From IMG/VR virus record IMGVR_UViG_3300002231_000829, positions 1,626-21,676 of that record: a stretch of DNA of 20,051 nucleotides, one strand, 5' to 3'. Positions 1,592-20,051 of the stretch are shown here, one piece after another. Under the pieces are notes generated by a model. The model was given only the letters and a program-made list of their open reading frames with translations. It ran no database searches and was not told where the DNA came from. The stretch is from a virus. Positions within the stretch are counted from its first letter, which is position 1, and each line of letters opens with the position of its first letter. The translations under genes and the position numbers were made by a program.

Positions 1592-4500
1592 ATGAATAGA
1601 ATTAGAGTCCCTTCGGGGAGTGTACAAAATTTAGAAACCGTTTTTGATAATCTTCAAAACGCCACTGAAACTAATATAACCAATAGAGTAGATGTTTTAA
1701 TTGGTAATTTTGGTTTATTGCTTGGTGCCGAAAATGGAGTTTATGACGATGTTTTTAAAGTCCAGATGAATTTTAAAAACAACGGATTTAGTGTTAATAG
1801 TGGAACGGCTATTACTCCAGATGGGGAGCATATTGAGTTTGAGGGTTCGGTTGTTGCTGACGCATTTACTACTTATACTTTAGGTACTGGAAAATACTAT
1901 TTAATAAAAGTTTCTTATGAATGGGTTGGCAGTGATGCTGTAACAGCACAAAATGCATTTATGTATAACAGTGCGGGCACAACCCCGTATTCAACTCAAT
2001 ATACCACTAGATCAGATTCTTATTTAATAGAATTAGTAGAAATAACCAGCATAACTAGTTTAAGTTTAGATAATGATGAGCTTGCTTTAGGAGTTGTAAA
2101 AACATTAGTTGGAAATACTTTTGATATAACAGCATGGACATTAGATGGTTACTCTGCAGCTAATGGAGTAATAGATGTCAGATCATTAAATAGACTTACG
2201 TTAGACGAAAATGTAGTTGATGATTCTGTGTTTATGCTAAAAGATAGAGATTCTATTGGTAGCTATAAAGTTGACGGCAAAGTAGAAATTGGCGATGATT
2301 TTTATGTTGATACAAATAAGTTTTTTGTTGATAAAAGTGAGGGGAAAATCGGTATTGGCACATCTAGCCCATTAAGCGACATACATATAAAAACAACAAC
2401 TCCTACGCTTAGATTGCACGATTCAGATGCATCTACTTTAGGTGCAGTTACCGCTAAAATAGATTTTTATAAAGGTGATGAAACAGCGGTAGATACATGG
2501 GCAGATTATGCTGGATATATAGGTTTTACGAGTGTGTCTACTTCAACTTTCTATGTATCTAACGATACAGAAGGTGATATAATATTAAGAACTGTTTCAA
2601 GAAACGAAACACAAAAATCTAAGTTTGACAGATATTTGACATTTACAAACGAAGGTTATTTAGGAGTTAACACTAATGCTCCAGAATATGGTCTAGATGT
2701 TAGAGGTTCTGTAAGAGCTACAGATGATGCTATATTTGGAAATGTAGATGCTTACAATGTACAAACATCTGGTTATTTATCAGTAAGTGGTATAACTAAT
2801 CATTATTTTGATGTCACTATCTATGATAGTGACTTAGAATTACCTGACACATTTAAAGTTGATAGTTTAACGGGTTATGTTATGATTGGATCATCAGACC
2901 CAACAGCAAACTTGCATATAAGAAATACCAGTGGAGCTGTTTTAAAATTAGATGCCAGTGCTACAACTCCAACAGTAGATTCAATGCCTTACATTGAATT
3001 GAGTGCCGGTGCAAGCAGTCCAAGTACATTTATTATGGCTTTGAATCCAAGCGATAATTCCTTTAGAATAGACAGTACCACAGCTTTTTCTAATAATCAT
3101 TTAGTTATTTTGAGTGATGGTAAGGTTGGTCTAAGTACTGAAACTCCATCAGAAGTTTTGGAAGTTTTAGGAAATATAAAAGCTGGCGGCGTGGGCCATC
3201 AAAAAGCTATTAAACTATCATCTACTGGCGCAGGACAAAAAGAGTATGATCTTGTGGTGGGAACAATTCCTGAAGGCAATATTGGCGATGCTGATGATAT
3301 TGGTAAAGGGAAGTTTGGTATTTATGATGTAACTGCTGATTCTTACAGATTAACAATAGACAAGAATGGGAATATAGGCATTGGCATAAATAATCCATCC
3401 ACCAATTTGCATGTTTCAGGTAGTGCTCGTATAACCGATGATTTATCTATAGAGGGAGATGTAACAGCGACTGATGCTACTTTCAGCACAGTTAGTGCTA
3501 CGACAGTCACCGCAACTAATTTTAATGTGACTAATACTGTTGCTTTAAGCAATTCTTATTTATCTGACACATTATCAGTAACTGAGTTAAGGTGGGCTTC
3601 TAGCCCTACAGATACTTATGCAGATGGTGGTTTTGAAGCAGGAATTACATCTAGTGGTTGGATAACGGCTGGAGCAAGCACCGAATTATCACAAAATTTA
3701 GGCGATGAAGATTCATTAAGAGTCTACAAAAATCTTAGAGTATTTGGTGATCCAGGAGCTAGGTTATCATTTTCTGAGGATACTACAAGCTCTGGAATAG
3801 CTTTATTGTACACAAACAGTGAATTATTTGTTAGAAGTGAATATGGAGATCACGCAAAGTTTTATGCTGACGGCGGTGATGCTGCTGTAGAAATTGATAG
3901 TTTAACTGTAACAGATTTAACTGTGTCTAATTTAAACGTGTTAGAATCAACTTTAGATGTAACAGCTATCACTGTGGCTGATTTAACAGTTCCATCTTGT
4001 TATACAGCAAATGCCAGTGAAATGCATATAACAGCTGCAAGTACGATTATTGATACTTTAGATGTTGGAACTATGGATACAAGTATTGGTAATTTCAATA
4101 ATGTTACTATTAGCGGAGCTTTAGATGTAAATATCATGGTAGCATCTGGTTTAGCAACATTTGGGGATGAGTTGTCTCAAAGTGTGCAAATAGACGGTGC
4201 AAACGGCCGTGTAATATTTACGGATACAGGAGGAACAGAAGTATTACGTATAGATGATGACATATTATCTGGTGATGCTGGTTTAAAAATCACAGGTGGA
4301 GGGGTAATATATAATTTCATAGATGGGTCAAATTATGTGCTTATAAAGGATTATATACTTGCCGTAAGTAATACTACAGCAGTTTCTGTTAATGGTATAA
4401 GCACATATGAAGGTAATGGAAATACTGGTGCTACTGGCGGAATTTATACTACTTCTTCAGCATTAGTGGGCGGATACCAACGTAGAGGTATTGCTGGCAC

Positions 4501-7263: not shown

Positions 7264-8334
7264 ATGAATAAATTAGCTTCATTAACTTTGGATGTGGTTG
7301 ATCACATTATTAATGATGACTTAGAGAAATTAGCAGAAACAGTGCAAGATCTATCTGAAGATGCTAGAACAACTTATGTTCCATCATATGAGGAACGGGA
7401 AAGCATGGATGAATCTAATTTTGGTTTGATTCTATGGCATCCCAATTTAGGTAAATTCAATAAATTTGCTACAGATAGCTCTGGTTTAGTCGAAATTAAT
7501 ATGGCGCTACTAGCTTCTAAAATGAAAGATTTACCTGATGAAATAATTAAAATTGCCGCAGCTAATTTAACTTGTGCTGCTAAAAACTTTGGAGTACAAA
7601 TACCTAAAGATCTAGAAAAATTTGCTTCTACAGAGTATGTATATAATACATTAGATATTAGAACTATAGATGAAGCAAAATTTATTGTAAAAACTTCTGA
7701 AATAGAAGAGCCCAAAACATACGCTGTCTTGGGCGATAATAAGTATCCGTTAGACAATAAAAAAGACATATTAAAAGCAGCTACATATTTCAAAAAGCAC
7801 CACAATAAATTTAGTCCTTTAGCGAAACTTGCTTTTGCTTTAGATGTTGTAAACGCTGCTAAAAATAATGATATTGCTATCAGTAAATCTGAAGTTGAAA
7901 AATACGCATCTATTAATACAGATGAATTTAATGTAGATTTAAAAGATCATATAGCTGTTAGACAATCATATTTAAAAGATGATGAATCTGACATTTTCGA
8001 AATATATGATGAACTTTTGGAGAAATCTGCAGAGCTAGGGCCTAATAGAACAGCTTCTGCTTTATATGAACTAGATAAGAAGTTGGGTTTAACTGATAGT
8101 TATGGAAAAGGTATAGAAGATTCTATAATATCAGTTTTCGCTTTAACGAAAGAAGCTGGCACAGATATAGATGGACATTTTGTTACAAATAACCAATTAA
8201 AAAACATACCTAGTGGTGAGTTAACGGCAATCGTAGGTAACGACGTTATACCAGAGCTCAAGGGAGAAGAAGGTTTAGAAGTATTAGCTTCGCTTCCCCG
8301 TCCCATTAGACAGGAGGTTTTAGATTTAATATAA
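7264..8334 (+). CDS. Uncharacterised phage protein (356 aa), helix-rich
   Basis: ATG 7264 has AAGGAG at 7247-7252. The protein is acidic, mostly predicted alpha-helical, with no signal peptide, membrane segment or Cys-based motif. Several short recurring helix starts of the type 'LEKFAS', 'VEKYAS' and 'LEKSAE' suggest internal helical repeats. The segment GLILWHPNLGKFNKFAT (about 54-70) is distinctive. It overlaps the next gene by one base (TAATG), so the two are probably translationally coupled. I cannot assign a family. Its position among virion genes makes a structural or internal virion protein the best guess. Confidence 0.75.
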   Translation: MNKLASLTLDVVDHIINDDLEKLAETVQDLSEDARTTYVPSYEERESMDESNFGLILWHPNLGKFNKFATDSSGLVEINMALLASKMKDLPDEIIKIAAANLTCAAKNFGVQIPKDLEKFASTEYVYNTLDIRTIDEAKFIVKTSEIEEPKTYAVLGDNKYPLDNKKDILKAATYFKKHHNKFSPLAKLAFALDVVNAAKNNDIAISKSEVEKYASINTDEFNVDLKDHIAVRQSYLKDDESDIFEIYDELLEKSAELGPNRTASALYELDKKLGLTDSYGKGIEDSIISVFALTKEAGTDIDGHFVTNNQLKNIPSGELTAIVGNDVIPELKGEEGLEVLASLPRPIRQEVLDLI

Positions 8335-8711
8335 TGAAAAATGAGTTTGCAAAATGGCTTACACTGATGTTGATAGTAACTGCATTTTTAGTATTAGTTG
8401 TATCCATTGGCAGTTCTTTTAATATTTTCATTGGAATTGTTGGTTATAAATTAGAAGTTTGGGTGTTTTTATTAATATTTTTAGCTTATGTATTAGTAAT
8501 AGCGTTTAAGAAGAATGAAATAAAAATAGAAATACCAGAGAAAGCTATTAAAGTTTTTGTGGATGTTGTAAAAGAAGAACAATCATTTACACAAGCTTCT
8601 TTAGCTATTAATAAAAAGAAAATACAAAATAAAATTGACATAGATAAAGTTAAGCCGTGGAAAGATGTTGATGTTGGAGAAATCTTTCTTGATGGAGAAG
8701 AGGTAAGTTGA
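8334..8711 (+). CDS. Two-TM membrane protein (125 aa), holin-like candidate
   Basis: Two hydrophobic segments at residues about 9-27 and 41-58 are separated by a short loop. A soluble charged tail of about 65 residues follows, containing a Lys-rich helix and a basic-acidic end (DVDVGEIFLDGEEVS). The hairpin topology, short length and proximity to an amidase suggest a holin or a holin-regulating protein, but no family motif proves it. The start overlaps the preceding stop by one base (TAATG at 8332-8336), and the stop overlaps the TTG start of the endonuclease (TTGA, 8708-8711). The gene is thus inside a tightly coupled run. Confidence 0.7.
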   Translation: MKNEFAKWLTLMLIVTAFLVLVVSIGSSFNIFIGIVGYKLEVWVFLLIFLAYVLVIAFKKNEIKIEIPEKAIKVFVDVVKEEQSFTQASLAINKKKIQNKIDIDKVKPWKDVDVGEIFLDGEEVS

Positions 8712-9292
8712 GAAAAGTTATAATATACAGAATAGTCTTTCCAAATGGAAAGAGTTATATTGGACAAACTATTCAGCCTCTTAACAGAAGAATAAATAGG
8801 CATCGTTCAAACTCCGCAAATAAAAGTTGTAGAATGTACAATATCCCAGTTTATAATGCTATTAGAAAGTATGGCTGGAAATCTTTAATTATAAATATAT
8901 TATGTAAAGTTTCTAAAGATAAGGCCAATAAGAGAGAAACCTTTTATATAGAAAAGTTTGGGTCTTTGATTGAAAATAGAGGTTATAACTGTATTTTAGA
9001 GTGGCCCGACAAAAGAAAAGAAATGTCTAAGGAAACTAGACAAAAAATGTCTGAAATACAAAGGACAAGTGAAAAATGTAAAGCTCATCTTAAAAAATTA
9101 CATGAGTCTAGAAAAGGTAAAAAAGCGCAAAATAGAAAGAAATGTGCCTGTTACGATGCGGATGGCGCATTAATTAAGCGATATGATTGTATGATGGATG
9201 CAAAAAAGGATGGACATGTTATGTCAGCTATCTCTAGATGTTGCAAGGGTAAACAAAAAACGCATCATAAACTAACCTGGAAATTAACATGA
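8708..9292 (+). CDS. Free-standing GIY-YIG homing endonuclease with NUMOD-type DNA-binding tail
   Basis: The N-terminal nuclease domain shows a variant GIY element (I5-I6-Y7 in KVIIYRI), the YIG element (Y17-I18-G19 in GKSYIGQT), an Arg/His helix with R27-R28 and H32, catalytic E77 in RETFYIEKFGS, and N94 in RGYN. The linker (about 106-140, SKETRQKMSEIQRTSEKCKA and onwards) is NUMOD3-like. The C-terminus (about 143-194, ending in SRCCKGKQKTHHKLTWKL) resembles the NUMOD1/helix-turn-helix modules that read DNA in such enzymes. The start must be TTG 8708, since the frame offers no closer ATG; AGAGG at 8699-8703 supports it. The gene overlaps its neighbours by 4 nt at both ends. Such seg-like enzymes spread themselves by cutting related phage DNA near their own locus. 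No intron borders are visible. Confidence 0.9.
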   Translation: MRKVIIYRIVFPNGKSYIGQTIQPLNRRINRHRSNSANKSCRMYNIPVYNAIRKYGWKSLIINILCKVSKDKANKRETFYIEKFGSLIENRGYNCILEWPDKRKEMSKETRQKMSEIQRTSEKCKAHLKKLHESRKGKKAQNRKKCACYDADGALIKRYDCMMDAKKDGHVMSAISRCCKGKQKTHHKLTWKLT

Positions 9293-11223
9293 GCGCTGCA
9301 ATTGATTGTGGTACAGGTAATTTTGTTGCTATAGATGGTGACGGAATTAGAATACAGAGAAACGCATTTCTTACAATTGATAGAAGTGTTACAACTACAA
9401 AACAACTTAAAAAAATGAAAGTTCCTTTTGTAGATATGGACAATAGGCTTCATATCGTGGGATCAAAAGCTTATGAATATGCACAAGTTTTTGGTACTAA
9501 AGATCTTAAGAGACCTATGCGTCAGGGATTATTAAATCCTGAAGAACAGGATGCTTTACCTATTCTTCGTTTAATTGTAGGCGGGTTATTAAAAGAACCT
9601 GCAACTAAAGGAGAGAAAGTAGTTTATTGCGTACCTGCTAAACCTATAGATGCGGAAAGAGAAACGGACTATCATGAAGATGTTTTAAAACAAATAATAG
9701 ATAGTTTTGGTTATGATTCTAGAGCTATAAATGAAGGGCTAGCTTTAGGAAATGCTGGTTTAGAAGAGGATGATTTAACGGGTATAGCTATAAGTATGGG
9801 GGCTGGTATGTGTTTAAAGGGAGATACTGTTATACCATTATTAGATGGTAGGAAATTAACAATACAAGAATTAGCAGAATCTAGTGAAAAAAGTTTTTGG
9901 GTTTATTCTTGTAAAAAAGATGGCCAAATAGTACCAGGGAAAGCTTATAATGCTCATAAAGTTAAAACCACGACAAAGTTATTAAAAATTAAATTAGATA
10001 ATAATGAGTATTTAGAATGTACTCCAGATCATAAAATAATGCTTAGAAATGGAAATTTTGTAGAAGCGCAAAATCTAAATATAGGTTCTTCTCTTATGCC
10101 ATTATACGTGTATGAAGAAAAAACTGGCTATAAACAGATAAAAAATAATAAAACAGGGATGTGGAATGCTGAACATAGGTTTTTATACAAAAATTATAAT
10201 AATGAAAATTTAGATAAATCAGACATTGTCCATCATAAAGATTTCAATAAGAGAAATAATAATCCAGATAATTTAGTAAAAATGGCCAATGCTGAGCATT
10301 CCCAACTTCATACTGAGTTAGCTAATGGTGCCAAAGAAAGACTTACAGGTAAAACTCTGGAAGAGCTTTATGGGGAAGATAAAGCTCGAAAAATAAAAAA
10401 GACAAGTTCAGATACTATGAAGAAATCTTGGAAAGAAAAAAAAATAAAATCTAAACCTATAACAAAAGATAATTTAAAAAAATGTCAAGAAAATGGTTTT
10501 GGAACTTATGAAAGAACTACAGAACACTTGAAAAACATATCTGATACATTGTACCAAAAAGGACAAATTCCATGGAATAAAGGTATGTCTGGTAAAGACT
10601 ATAAAAAACATTTTAGCAATGGATTTTCAAACCAGATTGGTACTGGGTTTAACCATAAAGTTATTTCTATAGAAACAATAAATCATGAGGTTGATGTATA
10701 TGATATGACTGTTGATGAATATCATAACTTTGCTATAGATTCTGGTATTTTTGTACATAATTGTAACGTAGCTATTATGTATATGGGAATGAGTGCATTA
10801 CAATTCTCTGTACAACAATCTGGAGATTGGGTAGATAAGAATGTTTCACGAGACTGCGGTATACCTGTAGCTAAAGCTCAATATATTAAAGAATCTGGGG
10901 ATTACACTATTGACCCTAAATCAACAGAAGAAAGAACTAGAGAGCAAAACGCTATTAAAAGTTACTATGAAGCTCTTATTAGGTATTTATTAGCTAATAT
11001 ATCTTCACAGTTTGAAAGTAAAGAAATGCCCAATTTTCCTAGTGAAGTTCCTATCGTAATAGGTGGTGGATCATCTATGGTTAATGGTTTTATTGAAGTA
11101 TTTAAAGCGCAATTTACACAAAAGAATTTCCCATTAAAAATATCAGAAATCAGATTAGTGGAAGAACCTTTAACGGCAGTAGCGCGTGGTTGTTTAATTG
11201 AAGCTAAATTAGAGGATGAATAG
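9289..11223 (+). CDS. Actin-like ATPase (ParM/MreB-type fold) interrupted by an intein
   Basis: After removal of residues 175-491 the product is 327 aa, normal for a bacterial or phage actin. The phosphate-1 loop is A4-I-D-C-G-T-G-N11. The phosphate-2 loop is ISMGAGM|CNVAIMYMG, rebuilt across the splice point. The adenosine-binding GGGSSM lies at 592-597 of the precursor. Phage actins form filaments that position or segregate DNA, or organise replication and virion assembly; which applies here cannot be told. The gene starts in an ATGA overlap with the endonuclease upstream. Because the intein splits the nucleotide-binding site, the unspliced protein should be inactive. A ParM-like plasmid-type partner gene or centromere repeat array is not seen nearby. 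Confidence 0.85.
   Translation: MSAAIDCGTGNFVAIDGDGIRIQRNAFLTIDRSVTTTKQLKKMKVPFVDMDNRLHIVGSKAYEYAQVFGTKDLKRPMRQGLLNPEEQDALPILRLIVGGLLKEPATKGEKVVYCVPAKPIDAERETDYHEDVLKQIIDSFGYDSRAINEGLALGNAGLEEDDLTGIAISMGAGMCLKGDTVIPLLDGRKLTIQELAESSEKSFWVYSCKKDGQIVPGKAYNAHKVKTTTKLLKIKLDNNEYLECTPDHKIMLRNGNFVEAQNLNIGSSLMPLYVYEEKTGYKQIKNNKTGMWNAEHRFLYKNYNNENLDKSDIVHHKDFNKRNNNPDNLVKMANAEHSQLHTELANGAKERLTGKTLEELYGEDKARKIKKTSSDTMKKSWKEKKIKSKPITKDNLKKCQENGFGTYERTTEHLKNISDTLYQKGQIPWNKGMSGKDYKKHFSNGFSNQIGTGFNHKVISIETINHEVDVYDMTVDEYHNFAIDSGIFVHNCNVAIMYMGMSALQFSVQQSGDWVDKNVSRDCGIPVAKAQYIKESGDYTIDPKSTEERTREQNAIKSYYEALIRYLLANISSQFESKEMPNFPSEVPIVIGGGSSMVNGFIEVFKAQFTQKNFPLKISEIRLVEEPLTAVARGCLIEAKLEDE
9811..10761 (+). mobile_element. 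Intein with HNH homing endonuclease (317 aa) in the actin-like gene
   Basis: Block A starts with Cys1 (CLKGDTVIPLLDG, precursor residue 175). Block B is YLECTPDHKIM with T245 and H248. The C-terminal blocks F and G are VDVYDMTVDEYHNFAIDS and GIFVHN, ending His-Asn, followed by Cys+1 (residue 492). All residues for class 1 splicing are therefore present. The inserted nuclease is HNH type: IVHHKDFNKRNNNPDNL, with H315-H316, N323-N324 and N328. A GQIPWNKGMSGKD NUMOD3-like segment follows. The insertion point is the phosphate-2 loop of the actin fold, a highly conserved site that inteins favour. Confidence 0.93.
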
Positions 11224-11296
11224 ATGAATTTTACAAATGAAATTATAAAGGTAGCTATATTTACATTTACTTTAAAAAGTAAAATAAAAAAAATTA

Positions 11297-11590
11297 ATGT
11301 TTAAAAATTACACAGAGGCAGACTTAGAGAACGCAATAAAAGCCTTTAAAGATTCTAATAGTAAACTACAAGGGGCAAAATTTTTAACTAATTTGTCAAC
11401 TGGCGTTGGAATTACTACTGGATTGGTAGCTGATACTATAGTTTTATCTATTATTTTAGGTATAGTTGGTTATGGACTTATGTCAGATGTAAGAGATAAG
11501 GCTATAAATAAGTTAAATGAAGAACTTCATAAATATAATTTACATTATGATACTGGATTAAAAAAAATTGTGAAAGTTACAGGAATTTGA
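11297..11590 (+). CDS. Small membrane protein (97 aa), unknown
   Basis: ATG 11297 to TGA 11590. A charged N-terminal helix (residues 7-27) is followed by a hydrophobic, Gly-rich stretch at 33-62 (VGITTGLVADTIVLSIILGI core), which could form one long or two short membrane helices. A basic amphipathic C-terminus with HKYNLHYDTGLKKI follows. No ribosome binding site is evident; the leader is A-rich. The 73 bases between the actin-like gene and this one are almost all A/T and hold only a weak AT-only inverted repeat. The protein might be a second holin-like or envelope protein; no family is recognised. Confidence 0.6.
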   Translation: MFKNYTEADLENAIKAFKDSNSKLQGAKFLTNLSTGVGITTGLVADTIVLSIILGIVGYGLMSDVRDKAINKLNEELHKYNLHYDTGLKKIVKVTGI

Positions 11591-11642
11591 CTTTAGTGTA
11601 ATTAAAGAGGAAGACTTGCAATAACTAAACCATTAACATACA

Positions 11643-11930
11643 ATGAGATTTTTCAAATGGTTAAAAGAAAAGACAAATTTCCATTGGCAAAATTTAAATG
11701 AAATATCAACACGTTATAACATATGTTATTCGGGGATTAGATACGGAAGATGTTGGTTTAGTCTATATAAGCTGAGGTTTTGTATTGAGTGCCTATTATC
11801 AGCGGCATGTCATGCTAATGTTGAAATTGGCGGAGAGTACGGAGAAAGTGATTTAAAAATAGGATTAGCTTTTTCTCCTGTATCATTTTGGTTTACTATC
11901 GAAGAGGGGCTATTTCCAATAAAAATATAA
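11643..11930 (+). CDS. N-terminal fragment of a conserved phage protein, frame broken (95 aa)
   Basis: The product begins MRFFKWLKEKTNFHW and contains CECL/CHANVEIGGEYGESDLKIGLAFSPVSFWFTIEEG-type beta-rich sequence, then stops at TAA 11928-11930, right after the five-A run 11921-11925. The -1 frame at that point continues as NLKKYHGLKTSISVHNG and reads on as a sensible protein to 12100. From memory, phages carry a single protein family in which this N-terminal part, the tryptophan-rich middle and the 'PATV..TWKR' part encoded next are joined. Here they are in pieces. Function of the family is unknown; it travels with portal-proximal genes. Alternative reading: separate small proteins. There is no ribosome binding site close to ATG 11643. 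Confidence 0.55.
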   Translation: MRFFKWLKEKTNFHWQNLNEISTRYNICYSGIRYGRCWFSLYKLRFCIECLLSAACHANVEIGGEYGESDLKIGLAFSPVSFWFTIEEGLFPIKI

Positions 11931-12100
11931 ACCTAAAAAAGTACCATGGACTAAAAACCTCTATTTCAGTGCATAATGGAACTTTATGGTGGGATATTTG
12001 GCAAGACGGCATGTGTTGGAGTAATAAAACTCCAAAATGGAAAATCGGAAGTTTTGGTTTCACTGATTTTATATTAGGAAAGTCTGTTTATAATAAATAA
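11888..12100 (+). CDS. Middle fragment of the same conserved phage protein (70 aa), tryptophan-rich
   Basis: The frame is open from ATG 11888, but that ATG is probably not a real start because it lies inside the coding sequence of the upstream fragment. The meaningful part begins near 11930. It contains SISVHNGTLWWDIWQDGMCW and KWKIGSFGFTDFILGKS, a Trp-rich block I associate with the middle of a longer phage protein. It ends at TAA 12098-12100. The frame continues beyond that stop without another stop as ILDIKEVNIPLIEGYYP into the next fragment, so the TAA appears to interrupt a once-continuous gene. It is either degenerate, recoded, or a sequence error. Confidence 0.5.
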   Translation: MVYYRRGAISNKNINLKKYHGLKTSISVHNGTLWWDIWQDGMCWSNKTPKWKIGSFGFTDFILGKSVYNK

Positions 12101-12130
12101 ATACTTGATATTAAGGAAGTAAATATTCCG

Positions 12131-12499
12131 TTGATAGAAGGATATTATCCAGCTACTATAGAAATGAGTCTTGCTACATGGAAAAGAAAAAGATGGTCAT
12201 TTACACAAAAAGCTGTGAGGGCAGAGGTTACTCCAAAAGAAGAGGTGTACATTCCTGGTAAGGGGACATGTGCTCATAACTGTGGGCCAGACGCAACCTT
12301 CAGTTCTACATTTCCAGCTAATAATATAAGAGAAGCAATAACAAAGTTTACACATGACATAATAGATACACGTCTTAAACGTGGCGGAGATCTTATGCCA
12401 CCTGAAGGTGAAGATAGGTCATGTAAATATCCTATACCACAAAAACCCATTGATACAGAACTTATAAAAAGTCAAATGGAGAAGAGGGCTAAAAAATGA
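12131..12499 (+). CDS. C-terminal fragment of the same conserved phage protein (122 aa)
   Basis: This is in the same frame as the middle fragment, separated from it only by TAA 12098-12100 and ten sense codons. Translation as a separate protein would start at TTG 12131, for which AAGGAAG (12113-12119) is an acceptable site at 11 nt. Key segments are EGYYPATIEMSLATWKRKRW, VYIPGKGTCAHNCGPDATFS and REAITKFTHDIIDTRLKRGG. This PGKG...NCG.DA pattern matches the C-terminal half of the phage family described for the fragments upstream (recollection). Molecular function is unknown. The stop overlaps the ATG of the next small gene (ATGA, 12496-12499). Confidence 0.65.
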   Translation: MIEGYYPATIEMSLATWKRKRWSFTQKAVRAEVTPKEEVYIPGKGTCAHNCGPDATFSSTFPANNIREAITKFTHDIIDTRLKRGGDLMPPEGEDRSCKYPIPQKPIDTELIKSQMEKRAKK

Positions 12500-12645
12500 G
12501 CAAACAAAAAAAGATCTTTTCTAGGCTGATAGATTTAATAAAGCATATTTTGAAATTAAAAAAGCTTATAGCTGAAAATGCAGAGTTAAAGGCATGGGTA
12601 AAAAACTTTCAAGTTAAGATAAAAAAACTTTTTTCACGCAAATAA
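12496..12645 (+). CDS. Very small basic coiled-coil protein (49 aa)
   Basis: ATG 12496 overlaps the upstream stop by 4 nt (ATGA), and the frame ends at TAA 12643-12645. The product is strongly basic with regularly spaced Leu/Ile (SRLIDLIKHILKLKKLIAEN), so an amphipathic helix or short leucine zipper is expected. It ends in KKLFSRK. Tight coupling to the upstream frame and codon use like its neighbours favour a real gene, but it is short and no family is recognised. Confidence 0.5.
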   Translation: MSKQKKIFSRLIDLIKHILKLKKLIAENAELKAWVKNFQVKIKKLFSRK

Positions 12646-12660
12646 TGGGATTCTATTTAA

Positions 12661-13149
12661 ATGAGCATTTTAAAAGTATCTTTAGAAGACTACACTAAGT
12701 ATAAATATAAAAAAGATTTATTTAATCCTAGGCAAGAGAAGCTTATTAAAAAAAAGTTCAAGAGATATTCTAAAGATTTAGAATCAGGAAAAGGTGTTAG
12801 AATTGGGAATTTGGACAGAGTTTTAATACCAAAAAAAGATCTATCTGCAAAGGAATTAACTAAAGGTTTAGGGTTTTTACCAACAAGAATAGCTGTACCT
12901 GAAAGTGGTCAAACTAAGTTTAGAACTTTTAGACATCCTCACAGTAAACACCATATACACTCCCATAGGAAGTATTGGACAATGCATAAAGACGAACATA
13001 CATCATATACAACTATGGGTTGGGCTAAAAAACTTAAAAAGAATCCATCTATGAAAAAATATGAAGCTGGATTACCAAGCACTGTGGATAGAAACACAAC
13101 AAAAGCGTCTAGTACTGTTGAAGCTTTTGCAAAGGGGAATGAAGCATAA
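12661..13149 (+). CDS. Conserved phage protein with His-rich centre, C-terminus shifted out of frame (162 aa)
   Basis: ATG 12661 to TAA 13149. After a Lys-rich N-terminal helix region, the centre (residues 88-113, FRTFRHPHSKHHIHSHRKYW followed by TMHKDEH) packs eight His into 22 residues (92, 94, 97, 98, 100, 102, 109, 113), which could bind a metal. In phages I recall this 'HIHxHxxxWTxHxDxH' family continuing with an 'EGxPGxxxYxK' tail. That tail is present here but in the +1 frame (IVEGVPGWVSYLKNRYLNK, from 13139 on), so the family protein seems to be interrupted at AAGGGGAATG, 13132-13141. A portal-adjacent structural or assembly role is inferred from position alone. Confidence 0.65.
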   Translation: MSILKVSLEDYTKYKYKKDLFNPRQEKLIKKKFKRYSKDLESGKGVRIGNLDRVLIPKKDLSAKELTKGLGFLPTRIAVPESGQTKFRTFRHPHSKHHIHSHRKYWTMHKDEHTSYTTMGWAKKLKKNPSMKKYEAGLPSTVDRNTTKASSTVEAFAKGNEA

Positions 13150-13261
13150 TATAGTAGAAGGTGTTCCTGGGTGGGTGTCTTATCTTAAGAATAGATATCT
13201 TAATAAAAATAGAACTGGCACAGTCAGTAAAATAAAAAAAGAAGTTAGAGAAGAGAAATAA
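13139..13261 (+). CDS. Out-of-frame C-terminal piece of the His-rich protein (40 aa), or small separate ORF
   Basis: ATG 13139 overlaps the last 11 nt of the His-rich gene. The product starts MKHNIVEGVPGWVSYLKN and ends in a basic tail. Skipping one base in GGGGAA (13134-13139) joins it seamlessly to the upstream protein as ...AFAKG-MKHNIVEG.... An AAAGGGGA stretch lies just before the ATG but is too close to be a normal ribosome binding site. It is best read as the lost C-terminus of the upstream gene, produced by +1 frameshifting, coupled restart, or not at all. Confidence 0.5.
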   Translation: MKHNIVEGVPGWVSYLKNRYLNKNRTGTVSKIKKEVREEK

Positions 13262-13262
13262 A

Positions 13263-13754
13263 ATGACTATAAATGAATTAATAACTATGCAAGAGGAATT
13301 AGAGCCAGAAACAATACGCAAGTTCTTTCCTCTCATGTCATCATTAGAAGTGCAGCAGATCCAAGTTCTAAAAATACTCAACACTACTATGGCAGCTTAT
13401 GAAGACATGGATGTATTTGAGGATGTTGTTGCTGTTTTAAATGGAGTTAGCCCCAATATTGGTGTTATGGAAGGTTCAACTCCTGAATTTATCTGGAGAG
13501 CTCTTGACATAATATTTGGGTTACATCCTAACTTAGAATTATCCTGGGATGTTGAACATTATACTAAGTACATATTTAATGATAATGGTTATTATTTTTA
13601 TCACCCAAAACTTAAATTAGAAAACGAATTATTAGATGATGTTATAAAAAAAGCTACAAGTGGGCCGTTTCCTTTAGAGGAGACTTTTATTGGGATCCAG
13701 GCAGGTAAATACTTAAAAATTTTAGAATACATAAATCAAGCAAAGAGAGGTTAG
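13263..13754 (+). CDS. Uncharacterised protein encoded just upstream of the portal gene (163 aa)
   Basis: ATG 13263 follows the previous stop by one base and the frame ends at TAG 13754, 7 nt before the portal gene. The protein is acidic and helical: ITMQEELEPETIRKFFPLMS at the start, FEDVVAVLNGVSPNIG in the middle, then PEFIWRALDIIFGLHPNLEL. I recall similar small 'EDxxxxLNGVxP' proteins beside portal genes of other phages, but no function is known for them. No membrane segment, Cys cluster or catalytic motif is seen. A head or packaging accessory role is inferred from its fixed neighbour. Confidence 0.7.
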   Translation: MTINELITMQEELEPETIRKFFPLMSSLEVQQIQVLKILNTTMAAYEDMDVFEDVVAVLNGVSPNIGVMEGSTPEFIWRALDIIFGLHPNLELSWDVEHYTKYIFNDNGYYFYHPKLKLENELLDDVIKKATSGPFPLEETFIGIQAGKYLKILEYINQAKRG

Positions 13755-13761
13755 ATAACGA

Positions 13762-16758
13762 ATGCCGGCTACTCCTGTACTAGAGGATACATTATCACAG
13801 ACTGAACGAAATAAGTTGGCTTACCCAGATCCATTCTTTGATCTGGCACGCAACTATATTCCAAAAAATATAAAAACTCTGTTTAAATTCTGCAGAACAT
13901 TTTTTTATACTACAGGGTTTCTTCGTAATGTCGTAACTAAGTTAACAGAATACCCTGTTACAGATATTCTGTATGATGACACAATAGACGCTGAAGCTAG
14001 AAAAAAGTGGGATACTGCGTTACATAGGAAATTAAAAATAAAAAGTTTTTTAATAGAGATTGGTCTTGACTTCTTTATATATGGGAATGCACTTATTTCA
14101 ATATATATGAAGCCCACTAGATTTTTAAAGTGCACAACATGTAAAGAAGAGCATCCAATTGATAATGTTAAATACAAATTAGAGAAATTTAAGTTTAAAG
14201 GCACTTGTCCATCATGTAAAGGAAAGGGTGTAGTTTTTTCCATCAAAGACACGTATTTAAAAACTATTGACAATTTTAAGTTTGTCAGATGGGCTCCTGA
14301 AAATATTGATATTGATTATAATCCATTAACTGGTACATCAATTTATTATTATACAATTCCATCAAAAATTAAGGCAGCAATAATAGCGGGGAATCAAGCT
14401 ATTATTAGAGAAGTGCCTGCTTTATTTTTAGAATCACTTGAAAAGAAAAAAAGAATAGAACTTGACCCAAAGAATCTTTTTCATTTTAAAAGGCCAACAT
14501 TAGCAGAAGATGATATGGGTTGGGGCAAGCCAATAATTTTGCCAGCTCTAAAAGAGATATACTATTTGCAAACATTAAGACGTGGAAATGAAGCTATTGC
14601 AAATGACCATGTTATTCCAAAAAAGAGCATCTATCCTGCTAATACTACTACACTTGATCCTTATTCTGTAGTACCTTATACAACGGTATTAACTAACAAT
14701 GGCATAAAGGAATTACAACATGTGGATTTTAAGAAAGATAAATTGTATTCCTACAATAGGGAAGAAACAGATGTCATTGATTGGAAATTAAGAGAAATAG
14801 AGGATTGGGATTACTTAGTAAAAGTAACTGCTGCCAAACAACCCGCATTTCCAATAAAAGTTAACTCTGTTCACCCTTTTAGGGTTTGGGTGCCTAGTCA
14901 GAAAGAACATAGTTGGAAAATGGCCAAGAGCCTATCTGTAGATGATTACTTAGCGTATCCAGTACCAATTTTAAAGGAAGGCACAGGTTGTATTCAAATG
15001 ATAGATACAGAAGAACTGCTAAAGGAAATTGAGTTTGGTTCTTGTTCAAATAGCATAACTACTAAAATATCCACTAATGAACGTTTTTTTAGATTTATAG
15101 GATTATTTATATCTGAAGGGTATTTGCATCAGACAGGAAGAGTAACTTTTACATTTAATAGTAACGAAACAGACTTACATAAATTTGTAGCTGACTATTT
15201 AAACGAATTAGCTCCGAATTGTAAAGATGCCTCAACATATACAAATGGTACTGTAACACAGGTTACCAAATGCTCTATAAAGTTGAAAATGTTGCTAGAA
15301 AAGTTAGTTGGTAACTTGAGTGATAAAAAGCATCTCACATACTTTAGAAATAAAATAGATAAAACACAACTATTGGCTTTGTTGCAAGGATTATACGAAG
15401 GAGATGGGTGTTTTAGATACTCAAAAAATCATGGAAATGCTAAATATCCTAAAATAACACTCCAATTAGCAAATTTAGATATTTCTTATTTTGTTTGGGA
15501 ACATTTACTGTGTTTTGGTCTATGCTCTTCCATAGCTACCTACAAAAAAGGAAGTTACAAAAGAACATGGACTAATGATTTGACTGGCAAGCCTGCTGAG
15601 ACTTTAGCAATAATGTTAAACATAATTGATAAATTTACTTATGCTACGGAAAGTTTAAATTCAACATATTTCTTCCATGACGATTTTGTGTATACTAAAG
15701 TAAACTCTATTAAAAAAATTAAGGAACGTATGGTTTTAAGTATCGAGGTAGACAATAATACACATTCATACTTAACCTTAGCTAAGTCTAATAAAAACAC
15801 GCAGATGAACCTTGGAAAGTGGAAGGGGCAAATAGAGGCCCAAATAAAAAAATGGAAATATGATCCTAATCACATAGGTGTTTTCCCCATACCAATAGGG
15901 TATCAAGAATTAGGTGGAAATGCTAGAACTTTGCTTTTAACACCTGAAATGAAATTCATTGAAGAATCTATTATTAATTCTTTAGGTGTACCTGTAGAAT
16001 TTGTAAAAGGTGGAACTACTTGGACAGGATCGAGTATTTCGCTTAGGATAGTGGAAAACCATTTTTTAACATATAGAGAATTGCTGTTAGATTTTTTAAA
16101 CTATTTTGTAGTGCCAGGTCTTGTTAGCAGATTAAAGTACTCACCAACGAAGCTAAAGTTTAAAAAATTCAAGATGTCAGATGATATACAAGCTAAGAAT
16201 CTTGTAATACAGCTAGGAGAGCAAGGTAAAATTTCTGATGCTAAACTATTAGATGAATTTGGTTTTGATGCAGAAGAAGAGCAAGAGGCTTTAAAAAGAT
16301 CCAGGTCTACCAGATTTGATGAACAAGTCGCTATGCAGGAGGCTACAGCCGAAGCACAGGGACGTGGAGCTGTTATATTAGCCAAGTATCAGGCAAGGGC
16401 ACAAGCTATCGCGGCGCATGAAAATCTTATAATAGAAACTGAGTTACTTCAAGATGAGCTTGCAAGAGAAAATAATGGCATAACTGATGATCCTGTTAAA
16501 GTTGTTGAAGAGTATGCATTAAAAATTTTAGCTATGACACCAGCACAACAAAATAAAACTTTAAATTCAATGGCAAAAACCATGCCAATAACGTATTCAT
16601 TGGTTGTTAGACGTATACAAGCAAAACAATTAGAACAAGCCCAACAACAAGCTTTTATAGAACAATCCTTTGAACCACAGAGTGCTCCAGAGAAAAAGAA
16701 AAGCACATCACCTGCTAAAAAGGAAAAAACAAAAGGTCAAACTGTGGGTGAACCTTAA
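13762..16758 (+). CDS. Portal protein interrupted by an intein, with Zn-ribbon insertion
   Basis: The precursor is 998 aa, and 620 aa after removal of residues 302-679. The extein looks like a phage portal (dodecameric head-tail connector and DNA channel). It has an N-terminal helix region (FFDLARNYIPKNIKTLFKFC), the wing/stem with WAPENIDIDYN, then IYPANTTTLDPY|TQMNLGKW across the splice point. GYQELGGNARTLLLTPEM and SIINSLGVPVEFVKGGTTWTG follow, typical of the portal clip region. C124, C127, C149 and C152 (CTTC...CPSC) form a probable Zn ribbon in the N-terminal part, an uncommon addition. The last 200 residues are helical and charged, ending in a Lys-rich tail. GAGG at 13746-13749 precedes ATG 13762. 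Terminase genes were not found in the window. The sulfotransferase-like gene overlaps its stop by one base. Confidence 0.85.
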   Translation: MPATPVLEDTLSQTERNKLAYPDPFFDLARNYIPKNIKTLFKFCRTFFYTTGFLRNVVTKLTEYPVTDILYDDTIDAEARKKWDTALHRKLKIKSFLIEIGLDFFIYGNALISIYMKPTRFLKCTTCKEEHPIDNVKYKLEKFKFKGTCPSCKGKGVVFSIKDTYLKTIDNFKFVRWAPENIDIDYNPLTGTSIYYYTIPSKIKAAIIAGNQAIIREVPALFLESLEKKKRIELDPKNLFHFKRPTLAEDDMGWGKPIILPALKEIYYLQTLRRGNEAIANDHVIPKKSIYPANTTTLDPYSVVPYTTVLTNNGIKELQHVDFKKDKLYSYNREETDVIDWKLREIEDWDYLVKVTAAKQPAFPIKVNSVHPFRVWVPSQKEHSWKMAKSLSVDDYLAYPVPILKEGTGCIQMIDTEELLKEIEFGSCSNSITTKISTNERFFRFIGLFISEGYLHQTGRVTFTFNSNETDLHKFVADYLNELAPNCKDASTYTNGTVTQVTKCSIKLKMLLEKLVGNLSDKKHLTYFRNKIDKTQLLALLQGLYEGDGCFRYSKNHGNAKYPKITLQLANLDISYFVWEHLLCFGLCSSIATYKKGSYKRTWTNDLTGKPAETLAIMLNIIDKFTYATESLNSTYFFHDDFVYTKVNSIKKIKERMVLSIEVDNNTHSYLTLAKSNKNTQMNLGKWKGQIEAQIKKWKYDPNHIGVFPIPIGYQELGGNARTLLLTPEMKFIEESIINSLGVPVEFVKGGTTWTGSSISLRIVENHFLTYRELLLDFLNYFVVPGLVSRLKYSPTKLKFKKFKMSDDIQAKNLVIQLGEQGKISDAKLLDEFGFDAEEEQEALKRSRSTRFDEQVAMQEATAEAQGRGAVILAKYQARAQAIAAHENLIIETELLQDELARENNGITDDPVKVVEEYALKILAMTPAQQNKTLNSMAKTMPITYSLVVRRIQAKQLEQAQQQAFIEQSFEPQSAPEKKKSTSPAKKEKTKGQTVGEP
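14665..15798 (+). mobile_element. Intein with LAGLIDADG endonuclease (378 aa) in the portal gene
   Basis: Block A begins with Ser1 (SVVPYTTVLTNNGIKE, residue 302). Block B is FPIKVNSVHPFRVW with H371. The LAGLIDADG helices are RFIGLFISEGY (444-454, acidic E452) and LLQGLYEGDGCF (540-551, acidic D548), so the nuclease looks intact. Blocks F and G are VLSIEVDNNTHSYLTLAKSN then KN|T: terminal Asn679 followed by Thr+1, with Lys rather than His before the Asn. Ser1/Thr+1 with a non-His penultimate residue is a less common but workable set. Borders were chosen so that the extein reads LDPY-TQMNLGKW. Confidence 0.9.
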
Positions 16759-17429
16759 TGCAAGAATACGTGTTTATTAAGCAGTATGGTCAGCGCAGAA
16801 CTGGTACAAATTATCTATTTTCTCTATTACACAGAAACTTTTCTAACGTAAAAGTATTAACCAACCATCTGGGTTGGAAACATGGTGGGCATAAAGATTA
16901 CAAAATTTTATATAAAAAAACCAAGAAAAAGCTAATAGCTCACGTAGGTTCAACTGCTTATGATGAGTTAGAAAACGCCATAAATGCAAATAGAGTTTAT
17001 AAAGCAGTATCTATAAAAAACCCCTACGCATGGATGGATAGCATACAAAGATACTTTAGGGTATCTTATTCAGATGAAGAAGCGGAAAAAGCAATTGGTG
17101 GCTATAATCGCGTTTACAGACACTGGAAAGAATCTTGTTTTGATGCTGGCAATGAAGGTATATTAGTGAGATATGAAGATGTGTTAAGAGATTATAGGAT
17201 CATATTGAGAATAATACAAAAAGATACAGTTGGTCTAAAGAGAAAAGAAAAGCACTTACACAATGTAGGAAAAGCTGTTGGACCGAGATCTCTACAAAAA
17301 GATTTTGCAAATTACTATCTAAATGCAGAGTATATAAAAAAACTCCCCAAGAGTCAAATAAGAATTGTGACTAAACATGCTGATTGGAAACTACTAAAGT
17401 TTTATGGGTATAGAAAGGGAGAACACTAG
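16758..17429 (+). CDS. Sulfotransferase-like protein (223 aa)
   Basis: The N-terminal GQRRTGTNYLFSLL (11-24) matches the 5'-phosphosulfate binding loop of PAPS-dependent sulfotransferases (R-T-G-T-N). VSIKNPYAWMDSIQRY (84-99) matches the 3'-phosphate motif (K87-N88-P89, S95). ILVRYEDVLRDYRIILRII (135-153) is the usual 'RYEDL' helix of the family. WKHGGH (40-45) is a candidate catalytic His region. Such enzymes move sulfate from PAPS to a hydroxyl or amine of a sugar, lipid or protein; the acceptor here is unknown. Length is near the family minimum. ATG 16758 overlaps the portal stop (TAATG). With a glycosyltransferase nearby, modification of a surface glycan of host or virion is a reasonable inference. 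Confidence 0.75.
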   Translation: MQEYVFIKQYGQRRTGTNYLFSLLHRNFSNVKVLTNHLGWKHGGHKDYKILYKKTKKKLIAHVGSTAYDELENAINANRVYKAVSIKNPYAWMDSIQRYFRVSYSDEEAEKAIGGYNRVYRHWKESCFDAGNEGILVRYEDVLRDYRIILRIIQKDTVGLKRKEKHLHNVGKAVGPRSLQKDFANYYLNAEYIKKLPKSQIRIVTKHADWKLLKFYGYRKGEH

Positions 17430-17440
17430 AGGTAAAAGTT

Positions 17441-17590
17441 ATGGACAAGTATGGTACATTTGAAATATTTAAAAACAAAGAAACAGGGGAAATTAAAGAA
17501 ATCCCGTTACATTACACAAAGGAATTAAACAAAGTAGCTAGTGATAAGGAATGGTCTCGCGTAAGTAAGCCTAAATCCGAGGAAAAATGA
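17441..17590 (+). CDS. Small hydrophilic phage protein (49 aa)
   Basis: ATG 17441 has a good AGAGG site at 17428-17432, 8 nt upstream, and the frame ends at TGA 17590. The sequence KYGTFEIFKNKETGEIKEIP, then KVASDKEWSRVSKP, resembles tiny phage proteins of the form 'KYGxxxxxxxKxTGEIKRxP...A.D.xWE', whose role is unknown (recollection). The ribosome binding site, spacing and coupling to the next gene support it as real. Confidence 0.6.
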   Translation: MDKYGTFEIFKNKETGEIKEIPLHYTKELNKVASDKEWSRVSKPKSEEK

Positions 17591-17591
17591 T

Positions 17592-17792
17592 ATGATACAT
17601 TCGCCTAAAATTAACGGTAAACAGGAAGTTGAAACATTTAACTTGGGAATTTACGAAGGTAAGATGAGCTATGAAGATATACTAAACTCTGCCGTAATCT
17701 TAAGAGATGAGTTTATATACGACAAAAAAAGCGGAAATCCTCTTATTACTGTGTGGTATATAAAAGAAGATGAAAGTATACTCAATATTTAA
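17592..17792 (+). CDS. Uncharacterised small protein (66 aa)
   Basis: ATG 17592 lies one base after the previous stop and is preceded by GAGG at 17579-17582 (9 nt), so the start is well supported. The protein is soluble and mixed alpha/beta, with SYEDILNSAVILRDEFIYDK in the centre and NPLITVWYIKED near the end. No motif is recognised. It is the last plus-strand gene before the convergent terminator. Confidence 0.6.
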   Translation: MIHSPKINGKQEVETFNLGIYEGKMSYEDILNSAVILRDEFIYDKKSGNPLITVWYIKEDESILNI

Positions 17793-17816
17793 TGTAAAAA
17801 AAGTTATAAAACGAAA

Positions 17817-17844
17817 CTAGGCACTGAAACAAGTCAGTGCCTAG
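17817..17844. terminator. Hairpin terminator between convergent genes
   Basis: CTAGGCACTG (17817-17826) and CAGTGCCTAG (17835-17844) pair perfectly around an 8-base loop; an extra A-T pair can shorten the loop to 6. In the minus direction the stem is followed by TTTCGTTTTATAACTTTTTTT (complement of 17796-17816), a good U tract, so it should end the glycosyltransferase transcript. In the plus direction the trailing sequence ATATATAAACTATTT is weaker, so it may act bidirectionally but less efficiently. Confidence 0.85.
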
Positions 17845-17853
17845 ATATATAAA

Positions 17854-20051
17854 CTATTTAAGAACTTCTCTAAAAATCTTACTCAACATTTCTACTTTAT
17901 CTTTCCATAAAAAGTTGGCCTTCACATTAAGAATACAAGATTGATCTATTATTTTTTCATTAGGCGATTCTTTCCATTTCTTATACTCTATCTCTAAAGC
18001 TTCTGTCATTTTCCAAACATCGACTACAGGTCGCAAATGACCATTATCCATAGCTTGATTCATTACAGCACTATTCGCAATCAAATGACCAGTGTCTCTT
18101 AACATCTCTGGAACTGCGGAATTTGCTGGAGCAATGCTGGGAGTTCCAGCAGCTGCTGCTTCTATTAGAGACAATCCACAGTTATGACTAGTGACTTGTC
18201 CAATATTATAGGATTCTCCATCTGGGACTTCTAAATCATACCCTATGCCATAAGGCTTTACATTTTCAATTGCTCTTATTTGTATATTTACACAACCGTC
18301 ATTTATATCGTACTTGCGAGTAATTTGGCCTTTTTTTATATCAGCTTCGTTATCTTCATAGTAAGTAACAGTATATATATTTCCGGAGCTATATCCTCTG
18401 GAGTTATCTTCAAGTCTAATTGAAAATACTTTATTTAGTGTTAAACCCAAATCTCTAACTAAATAGGCTAATTTCTTTGATACTGTTTTATATCTGGTAA
18501 AAGTATTTTTTTTACTAACATCCCCATCTCCTTCAATCAATCCTTGAAGTAAGCTTTCTCTGCAATCTTTCTCTAAATACAAAAACCATAGTGGGAACTT
18601 TTTATTGTGAGCATTATTTCCAAATAAATCTTCAAATAGTTTACTCAATGGGGCTCCATTTAATTGAATAGCTCCTGATGCGTCTTTCTTTGATTTTACG
18701 AATTTTGGGCATTTATAACTATTATGTATATTTATTTTATTTGAATAACAATCTATCACAAATTTATGTAAATCAATTTCTTTGTTATGAAAAGAAAAAC
18801 TAATACCAGAACTATTTTTTGATCCTTCAGCTATATATAATCCAAAAAGTCTACATAAGTCTTTATCAATATTTAAATATCTTGGTAATTTACATTTTGC
18901 TTTACTTTGTTTTGATTCAACGTAAGTATCTGTTATAGTGTAATATTTTGGATTTGCATATAATTTTAAGTCTATTTTATCAGTATTTCCTACATTATAT
19001 TCAGAATACCTTGGAATTTTTAATGATAAAACATCATTTAAACTAAGTTTATCAGCTCTTTTATATTCACCAGATTGAGTTAAGAATGGGTGATCATGAG
19101 AACAAATTATAGGTTCTGCAAATTTCCAGAGTTTAATAGAATACATGTCTTCTGTAAATTTAGTGGCTTGTGTTTTATTTACTTTAGTAAAATAACCTTT
19201 ATCATTAATGACCTCGTCTTCTTCTGATATTTCCTCAATATACTTATAACCTTGTTTTGTTAGTATTAGAGTGCCCTCTAAAAGCTTACCTTCCCCTAAA
19301 GTAGAAGATATATTAATGTTAGAAACATTATATATGTCATTAACTACTTCATTTGAAACAGCGCCACCGTATATATTACTGGCATTTACACCAATTATTG
19401 TGTTTACATCATTGTCTTGAAAGCCGGCATTTAATAAATGGTTTTGCAATAAATTAGATCTGCCCGGTCCCATACAAGGCTCATTAGCCATCATATGGAG
19501 ATACAAAAAAACATCTTTTTTGTCATGGATTACCACATTGACTATATGTTCCTTGGGACAAGGATTTAAATCACAAGATGTTCTATCTAGTGGCATGCGA
19601 TTTCCACATTTACATTCTTTGTAACCTTTTGCAAACATGCTAAAGGCTCTAACAGACAGAGGAATTGCTTTTCTAGGCTGAAATCTGTTTAAATTTGTTA
19701 CTACAAATTTCCGTTTCCATCCGAAGTTTTCTTTTTTCTCAAGAATTTCCTTATATTTTAAAGGGCGGTATACTTTAGTATCTACACCATGATATAACTT
19801 ATGCATATTCTTAATATTAGGAAACCTGTCTTGTACGACTTTGATAGCCCAATCAGAATAAGTTATAACACTATCAGCTATTTTAAATACATTTTCCCAC
19901 GCTTGACTAAATGGTTGACCATCTACAGGAAAATAAATAACTATTTTTGATGTTGGTGGAAGCACTGCTCTAACTTTATCTATTATGTCAGAGATATGAA
20001 ATATATCCTGAAACAAAAACACAATATCTGGCTGTTCGCGTTTTAGTAAAG
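17854..20051 (-). CDS. GT4-type glycosyltransferase interrupted by an intein, 5' truncated
   Basis: The frame is open to the right edge (LLKREQPDIVFLFQD upstream of the GTG at 20022), so the start is outside the window. The extein (residues 1-245 and 615-722 counted from 20022) has GT-B/GT4 landmarks: YHGVDTKVYRP (77-87), VVTNLNRFQPRKAIPLSVRA (107-126, nucleotide-sugar domain start) and STLGEG|CGLSLIEAAAAGTP, the conserved 'GEGxGLxxxEAxAxG' donor-binding stretch containing the catalytic Glu. C137, C139, C150 and C155 form a Cys cluster inserted in the C-terminal Rossmann domain, possibly a Zn site. The likely role is transfer of a sugar from a nucleotide donor to DNA, protein or surface glycan; the acceptor is unknown. 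Transcription converges on the plus-strand genes. Confidence 0.85.
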   Translation of the reverse strand, partial: LLKREQPDIVFLFQDIFHISDIIDKVRAVLPPTSKIVIYFPVDGQPFSQAWENVFKIADSVITYSDWAIKVVQDRFPNIKNMHKLYHGVDTKVYRPLKYKEILEKKENFGWKRKFVVTNLNRFQPRKAIPLSVRAFSMFAKGYKECKCGNRMPLDRTSCDLNPCPKEHIVNVVIHDKKDVFLYLHMMANEPCMGPGRSNLLQNHLLNAGFQDNDVNTIIGVNASNIYGGAVSNEVVNDIYNVSNINISSTLGEGKLLEGTLILTKQGYKYIEEISEEDEVINDKGYFTKVNKTQATKFTEDMYSIKLWKFAEPIICSHDHPFLTQSGEYKRADKLSLNDVLSLKIPRYSEYNVGNTDKIDLKLYANPKYYTITDTYVESKQSKAKCKLPRYLNIDKDLCRLFGLYIAEGSKNSSGISFSFHNKEIDLHKFVIDCYSNKINIHNSYKCPKFVKSKKDASGAIQLNGAPLSKLFEDLFGNNAHNKKFPLWFLYLEKDCRESLLQGLIEGDGDVSKKNTFTRYKTVSKKLAYLVRDLGLTLNKVFSIRLEDNSRGYSSGNIYTVTYYEDNEADIKKGQITRKYDINDGCVNIQIRAIENVKPYGIGYDLEVPDGESYNIGQVTSHNCGLSLIEAAAAGTPSIAPANSAVPEMLRDTGHLIANSAVMNQAMDNGHLRPVVDVWKMTEALEIEYKKWKESPNEKIIDQSCILNVKANFLWKDKVEMLSKIFREVLK
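18181..19287 (-). mobile_element. Intein with LAGLIDADG endonuclease (369 aa) in the glycosyltransferase gene; first residue atypical
   Basis: Residues 246-614 (numbering from 20022). Block A reads KLLEGTLILTKQGYKYIEEI, so position 1 is Lys246 where Cys or Ser is expected. Block B is ICSHDHPFLT with H311. LAGLIDADG helices are RLFGLYIAEG (391-400, E399) and LLQGLIEGDG (491-500, D499). Blocks F and G are IGYDLEVPDGESYNIG and VTSHN, ending His613-Asn614 before Cys+1 (615). The borders rejoin the GT motif as GEG-CGLSL. All but residue 1 are canonical, so C-terminal cleavage should work while N-terminal cleavage is doubtful. Confidence 0.88.

Follow-up and report, generated by a model that had tools for sequence, protein, structure and literature searches.

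Three Inteins and a GIY-YIG Homing Endonuclease Gene in a Phage Genome Fragment, Including a Glycosyltransferase Intein without a Nucleophile at Position 1

Introduction

Class 2 inteins are devoid of a nucleophile at position 1; they make use of Cys+1 and require the residues at B:7, B:10, and F:4 (PMC4031507; PMC10663303). They have been reported from KlbA genes only (PMC3196547), and the KlbA representatives carry Ala1 and a Ser residue at G:6 (PMC4031507). A large-phage genome fragment is described here in which three inteins and one homing endonuclease gene lie inside 11 kb (Table 1), and in which the intein of a GT4-type glycosyltransferase gene begins with Lys. The analysed stretch of 20,051 bp (the window) comprises bases 1626-21676 of the 26,209-bp virus record IMGVR_UViG_3300002231_000829. 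We consider it likely that the phage, a tailed phage with a large genome, was invaded separately by the three inteins and by the GIY-YIG gene, and that the glycosyltransferase intein splices by the class 2 route.

Table 1. Coordinates of the inteins, their host genes, and the associated endonucleases in the window.
Feature	Position	Strand	Evidence and remarks
Free-standing GIY-YIG homing endonuclease	8708-9292	+	TTG start; PF01541 4.1e-8; TIGR01453 3.7e-18
Volactin-family actin gene with intein	9289-11223	+	N-extein 9289-9810, C-extein 10762-11223; PF25216 2.3e-69
HNH intein in volactin	9811-10761	+	317 residues; assigned to class 1, C1 and C+1; PF14890 4.4e-23; TIGR01445/TIGR01443 intein ends
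HNH_3 endonuclease motif in volactin intein	10174-10302	+	PF13392 2.8e-5, slightly below cut-off; several HNH PHROGs
Portal-like gene with intein	13762-16758	+	phrog_16240 7.8e-5; Salmonella phage Arash portal, E 1e-37
LAGLIDADG intein in portal	14665-15798	+	378 residues; Ser1, penultimate Lys; borders by alignment
LAGLIDADG_3 domain of portal intein	15367-15576	+	PF14528 1.5e-7
GT4-type glycosyltransferase gene with intein	17854-20051, continuing beyond the window end (L003:480-2885, 801 residues)	-	PHROG 2170 1.2e-13
LAGLIDADG intein in glycosyltransferase	18181-19287	-	369 residues; no nucleophile at position 1; PF14890 5.1e-9
Cys+1 codon, proposed first nucleophile	18178-18180	-	Invariant in 4/4 intein-bearing alleles
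LAGLIDADG_3 domain of glycosyltransferase intein	18397-18561	-	PF14528 3.1e-7; second acidic motif GDGD present
Lys1 codon (AAG) of glycosyltransferase intein	19285-19287	-	Sequence

Sequence Material and Comparison of Alleles

Relatives were gathered by a search with the actin N-extein, followed by alignments of the glycosyltransferase and portal genes, and were located on contigs of up to 210 kb. Loci from these contigs are designated by L-numbers; L003 is the locus of the window's own record and reaches to the right of the window. The glycosyltransferase and portal relatives were recovered by alignment-based extein and intein scans of viral contigs. Single-protein scans of the viral contigs with the window's glycosyltransferase intein or portal intein gave no matches, and the PF14890 profile was too insensitive for the detection of inteins across the relatives. 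Intein borders were recomputed by alignment with intein-free relatives. Counts of empty alleles refer to distinct alleles, and the window is included in the occupied counts.

Borders and Occupancy of the Three Intein Sites

At each of the three sites an in-frame insert with precise reading-frame junctions was found that is missing from homologues. The empty alleles (22 for the glycosyltransferase, 56 for the portal, and 21 for the actin, all from distinct relatives) read straight through and align gap-free through each of the three junctions; the occupied alleles number four, three, and two, respectively, so that the same insertion sites are in use in related phages. An earlier reading of this DNA by itself (the sequence-only reading) had proposed the three inteins, and the borders from alignment were identical to the base with those it had given; no intein-free homologue aligned through an intein region. 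The dense invasion that it had described, with three nuclease folds distributed over three inteins and one free-standing endonuclease, was likewise borne out by domains and borders. The Lys1 residue of the glycosyltransferase intein and the Ser1 residue and Lys-Asn end of the portal intein are features beyond that reading.

The junctions of the glycosyltransferase intein are GEG/K...HN/CGLSLIE (slashes mark the splice junctions). The interrupted stretch GEG/CGLSLIE is presumably the catalytic EX7E motif of GT4 enzymes. The empty alleles read GEG/CGLSLIE with no Lys, GEG directly preceding residue +1, and the Lys residue is hence part of the intein and not of the extein. Assignment of the host gene is supported by a match of Pfam Glycos_transf_1 to the intein-free relative L016 (1.8e-9). 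Another glycosyltransferase-like phage protein, found in L150 and L152 (around position 3001), has a Cys1 intein in an EX7E-like motif, so that this target seems to have been reached by inteins repeatedly.

A Glycosyltransferase Intein Family without a Nucleophile at Position 1

The glycosyltransferase site is occupied in four phage lineages, with Lys1 in the window, in L017, and in the L008 group (found on five contigs by the intein scan), and with Ala1 in L057. None of the four inteins (K, K, K, A) thus has the Cys, Ser, or Thr residue at position 1 that defines class 1. Ser-B:7, His-B:10, Asp-F:4, the terminal His-Asn pair, and Cys+1 are invariant in all four. The class 3 signature WCT (Trp-B:12, Cys-F:4, Thr-G:5) is absent from every member, the corresponding residues being F (L in L057), D, and S or V, and assignment to class 3 was ruled out on this ground. 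What remains is the combination known from class 2: Cys+1 with no nucleophile at position 1. A sequencing error at Lys1 was discarded as an explanation because Lys occupies this position in three separate lineages. A chance pattern was also rejected: when viral contigs were scanned for GEGKLxEGT, 13 stretches were returned, in which the glycosyltransferases all belong to this family and the others are unrelated proteins.

The four inteins are 39-71% identical in pairwise comparison, and all of them have retained an open frame and the splice residues. The window's intein retains both LAGLIDADG acidic motifs (IAEG and EGDGD). In the L008 intein both have been lost (AEGS changed to GCGH, GDG deleted); its endonuclease region is only 29-30% identical to those of the other members, whereas its splicing regions are 53-68% identical. 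In L008 the splicing part has thus stayed conserved even in the absence of homing.

Exteins and inteins have different histories. The inteins of L017 and L057 are 70% identical and their exteins 56%; the L017 extein is 79% identical to that of intein-free L016, its sister in the extein tree (support 100/100). In the same tree the window's extein is sister to that of L057 (99/95), and a grouping of L017 with L057 is rejected (approximately unbiased test, p-AU 2e-6). In the intein tree, in which portal and other phage inteins were included, L017 stands with L057 (90/90), and a grouping of the window with L057 is rejected (p-AU 0.03). The glycosyltransferase intein has moved horizontally between phages. 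The four members form one group (100/99) among Cys1 and Ser1 phage LAGLIDADG inteins, a topology that fits a single putative loss of the position-1 nucleophile; on the observed tree Lys1 is the commoner state and Ala1 a single change.

Fold models of the glycosyltransferase intein were computed from four sequences (predicted local distance difference test score, pLDDT, 64.8, with a poor C terminus) and from seven sequences (pLDDT 81.5; predicted template-modelling score, pTM, 0.83). The latter model matches endonuclease-bearing VMA inteins and PI-PkoII. Splicing blocks and the HINT fold were recognized by PF14890 in the volactin and glycosyltransferase inteins and, for the glycosyltransferase intein, also by the VMA fold match.

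Predicted Splicing Route and Alternatives

To yield a working protein, each of the three inteins would have to splice out of a conserved functional motif, and each would bring its own nuclease for homing (HNH in volactin, LAGLIDADG in the portal and in the glycosyltransferase). With Lys1 (Ala1 in L057) the usual N-terminal (thio)ester could not form in the glycosyltransferase intein. In the proposed class 2 route, which passes through one branched intermediate only, Cys+1 would attack the Gly-Lys1 peptide bond directly, with assistance from Ser-B:7, His-B:10, and Asp-F:4, and cyclisation of Asn would then release the intein. The borders, the residues, the distribution, the horizontal transfer, and the decay of the endonuclease beside retained splicing residues are seen in the sequences; that the intein splices, and by which route, is what we infer. 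Splicing is probably intact, as judged from three indirect lines: the open frames with retained splice residues, the decay of the endonuclease in L008, and the horizontal movement. By elimination, the glycosyltransferase inteins should constitute a class-2-like family outside KlbA; because the mechanism is deduced, and because the features specific to KlbA are absent, they were not filed as class 2. No sequence relation to KlbA was detected, and we moderately favour the view that the family is phage-borne, still mobile, of class 2 type, and independent of KlbA in origin, tolerating Lys1 or Ala1 together with a normal penultimate His and with endonuclease motifs intact in three of the four members.

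Several points weigh against this interpretation. His occupies G:6, where KlbA inteins have Ser, unlike in known class 2 inteins. Independent intein alleles at the glycosyltransferase site number only four, and no relatives of these inteins were found in the searched bacterial or archaeal genomes. Modelling of the C-terminal splice motif is poor, with a pLDDT of about 26-54 in the final 20 residues, and too unreliable for the active-site geometry to be judged. In class 1 inteins a non-conservative substitution of residue 1 blocks splicing (PMC3196547), so that further adaptation must be assumed in the glycosyltransferase intein.

The alternative that survives best, although it is unlikely, is that the glycosyltransferase intein no longer splices and is either inert or capable of cleavage only, like a bacterial intein-like domain, the enzyme being lost or working in two pieces. 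Position 1 without a nucleophile would agree with this, and there is a known case of an inactive intein that has persisted in a genome (PMC3196547). Four lineages that have diverged to 39-71% identity have, however, kept the frame open and every splice residue; the N- and C-exteins are both conserved, and the EX7E motif stays split unless they are joined; in L008, moreover, the splicing residues have outlasted the endonuclease.

Replacement of residue 1 by another residue, such as Cys-B:6, which would give a class-3-like path whose internal branch point lies at a new position, is distinctly improbable. Cys at B:6 is invariant in all four glycosyltransferase inteins (ICSHDHPF and variants), but the volactin intein, which does bear Cys1, has Cys at B:6 as well (LECTPDHKIML), and the residue is therefore not tied to the loss of the nucleophile at position 1; in addition, F:4 is Asp and the WCT motif is absent.

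The sequence-only reading had further suggested that splicing might place several phage functions under conditional control, and the three inteins could in principle be coordinated switches responding to redox state, metal, or temperature. Other inteins are documented to splice conditionally (PMC7360933, PMC6195587), and in phage inteins the rate can be tuned by unusual catalytic residues (PMC5050341). The control idea nevertheless found no support and is very improbable, since occupancy is sporadic and uncoupled between the sites, and no shared regulatory feature was found among the three inteins: L017 has the volactin and glycosyltransferase inteins but not that of the portal, L057 and L008 have the glycosyltransferase intein only, and most relatives have none and make all three proteins intein-free. 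No other relative carries the window's set of three. Inteins are known to favour conserved sites, and homing alone predicts insertion into conserved motifs (PMC2814812); ordinary phage homing therefore explains the cluster.

Misplacement of the N-terminal border, by which Lys would be an extein residue or the true first residue another one, is barely credible: the border is defined by sequence only, but in 22 distinct empty alleles GEG is followed by a single residue and then by a conserved G, and no further residue intervenes, L057 has A1 in the same column, and the block A spacing K-L-L-E-G-T-L-I matches C-L-x-x-D-T-x-I.

If separate invasion with class 2 splicing of the glycosyltransferase intein is correct, the class-2-type phage family would show that nature has solved splicing without an N-terminal nucleophile a second time. 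The compensating residues that are needed could then be identified by comparing its four natural alleles (K, K, K, A), which are diverged and include one whose endonuclease is dead, and an intein that splices with Cys+1 alone could serve as a protein-ligation tool. The Lys/Ala-starting family is the part of the cluster that deserves bench work; the cluster as such, with its three sites and three nuclease folds and with a further HNH gene that a relative carries where the window has the GIY-YIG gene, illustrates phage homing well but is ordinary.

Volactin and Portal Inteins

The junctions of the volactin intein are SMGAGM/C...HN/CNVAIMY, and the site SMGAGM/CNVAIMY is, as we assume from the actin fold, the phosphate-binding motif (phosphate loop). 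Its terminal residues assign this intein to class 1, with Cys1; L017 also carries an intein here, 60% identical to that of the window. PF25216 matches the window's actin with 234.8 bits, over the cut-off, and intein-free L016 spans positions 5-321 of the 321 in the profile. The published volactin is a protein of the archaeon Haloferax volcanii (PMC10869688). Full-length volactin relatives were seen in the window's phage family and in two phage genomes of 485-595 kb (LR745208, LR756511).

The portal gene was identified from a weak PHROG match and from 29% identity to the annotated portal of Salmonella phage Arash (Table 1). Its intein (junctions DPY/S...KN/TQMNLGKW) splits the conserved motif DPY/TQMNLGKW, with the Lys-Asn end preceding Thr+1, and has LAGLIDADG motifs with the acidic residues present (ISEG and EGDG). 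Inteins at this site in L127 (6004-8874) and L135 (6037-8793), which have Cys1 and HN/T, are 23-32% identical to it; in the intein tree it groups firmly with that of L127 (100/99). PF14890 gives no match in the portal intein, and its status as an intein follows from the borders and from these C1/HN relatives. Mycobacteriophage inteins have often lost the penultimate His, with Lys among the replacements (PMC5050341); by this precedent the portal intein is classified as a variant class 1 intein with Ser1.

Free-Standing GIY-YIG Gene and Neighbouring Features

The GIY-YIG gene proposed in the sequence-only reading was confirmed as a free-standing homing endonuclease gene: it has the domain, is a gene of its own, and does not lie in an intron. 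It is situated just before the actin gene and overlaps both neighbours, the gene at 8334-8711 and the actin gene, by 4 bp. A surrounding group I intron was ruled out, as no Rfam group I intron match was found in the window and relatives are simply without the gene: in L004, L005, and L094 its two neighbours have no such gene between them. In L068 (3655-4090) the same intergenic gap holds an unrelated HNH_3 endonuclease gene that also matches NUMOD4 weakly, and the spot is therefore a landing site for unrelated homing endonucleases.

To the right of the window, the same record encodes a retron-type reverse transcriptase (L003:4904-5824, minus strand; PF00078 2.6e-24, PADLOC RT_XIII 1.8e-77). 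Nearby, about 800 nt (L003:3040-3850) have a G+C content of up to 0.53 against a background of 0.3, many long hairpins, and a folding energy z-score of -14 relative to 20 shuffles; no Rfam match at the gathering score was obtained for this region, which is possibly a structured RNA. In L017 (12900-14850; contig IMGVR_UViG_3300028299_000324), and also in L083, in-frame stops interrupt the portal gene where Trp is conserved. The longest open reading frame of L017 extends to 1996 codons if TGA is read as Trp, while the standard code leaves the volactin and glycosyltransferase genes of this locus open; recoding of TGA in L017 is likely, and is perhaps confined to structural genes.

Comparison with Known Systems

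The GIY-YIG gene resembles the free-standing endonucleases of the T4 Seg/Mob type, being an intergenic gene beside core genes and sporadic among relatives, and no sequence difference from that type was seen. The glycosyltransferase intein shares its architecture and fold with class 1 LAGLIDADG phage inteins (portal, ribonucleotide reductase), which are nearest to it in sequence, but those compared here all begin with Cys or Ser. With class 3 inteins, which are of phage origin, it has in common the phage context and the absence of a nucleophile at residue 1, whereas Trp-B:12, Cys-F:4, and Thr-G:5 are all missing. No KlbA structure was present among its sequence matches at E<=1. With class 2 inteins of the Methanocaldococcus jannaschii KlbA type it shares a position 1 without C, S, or T, and also Cys+1, His-B:10, Asp-F:4, and the terminal Asn. 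It differs from them in that its host is a phage glycosyltransferase and not an archaeal KlbA orthologue, that residue 1 is Lys in three of the four members and Ala in one, that the phage family has His and not Ser at G:6 and Ser and not Thr at B:7, and that it carries a LAGLIDADG endonuclease.

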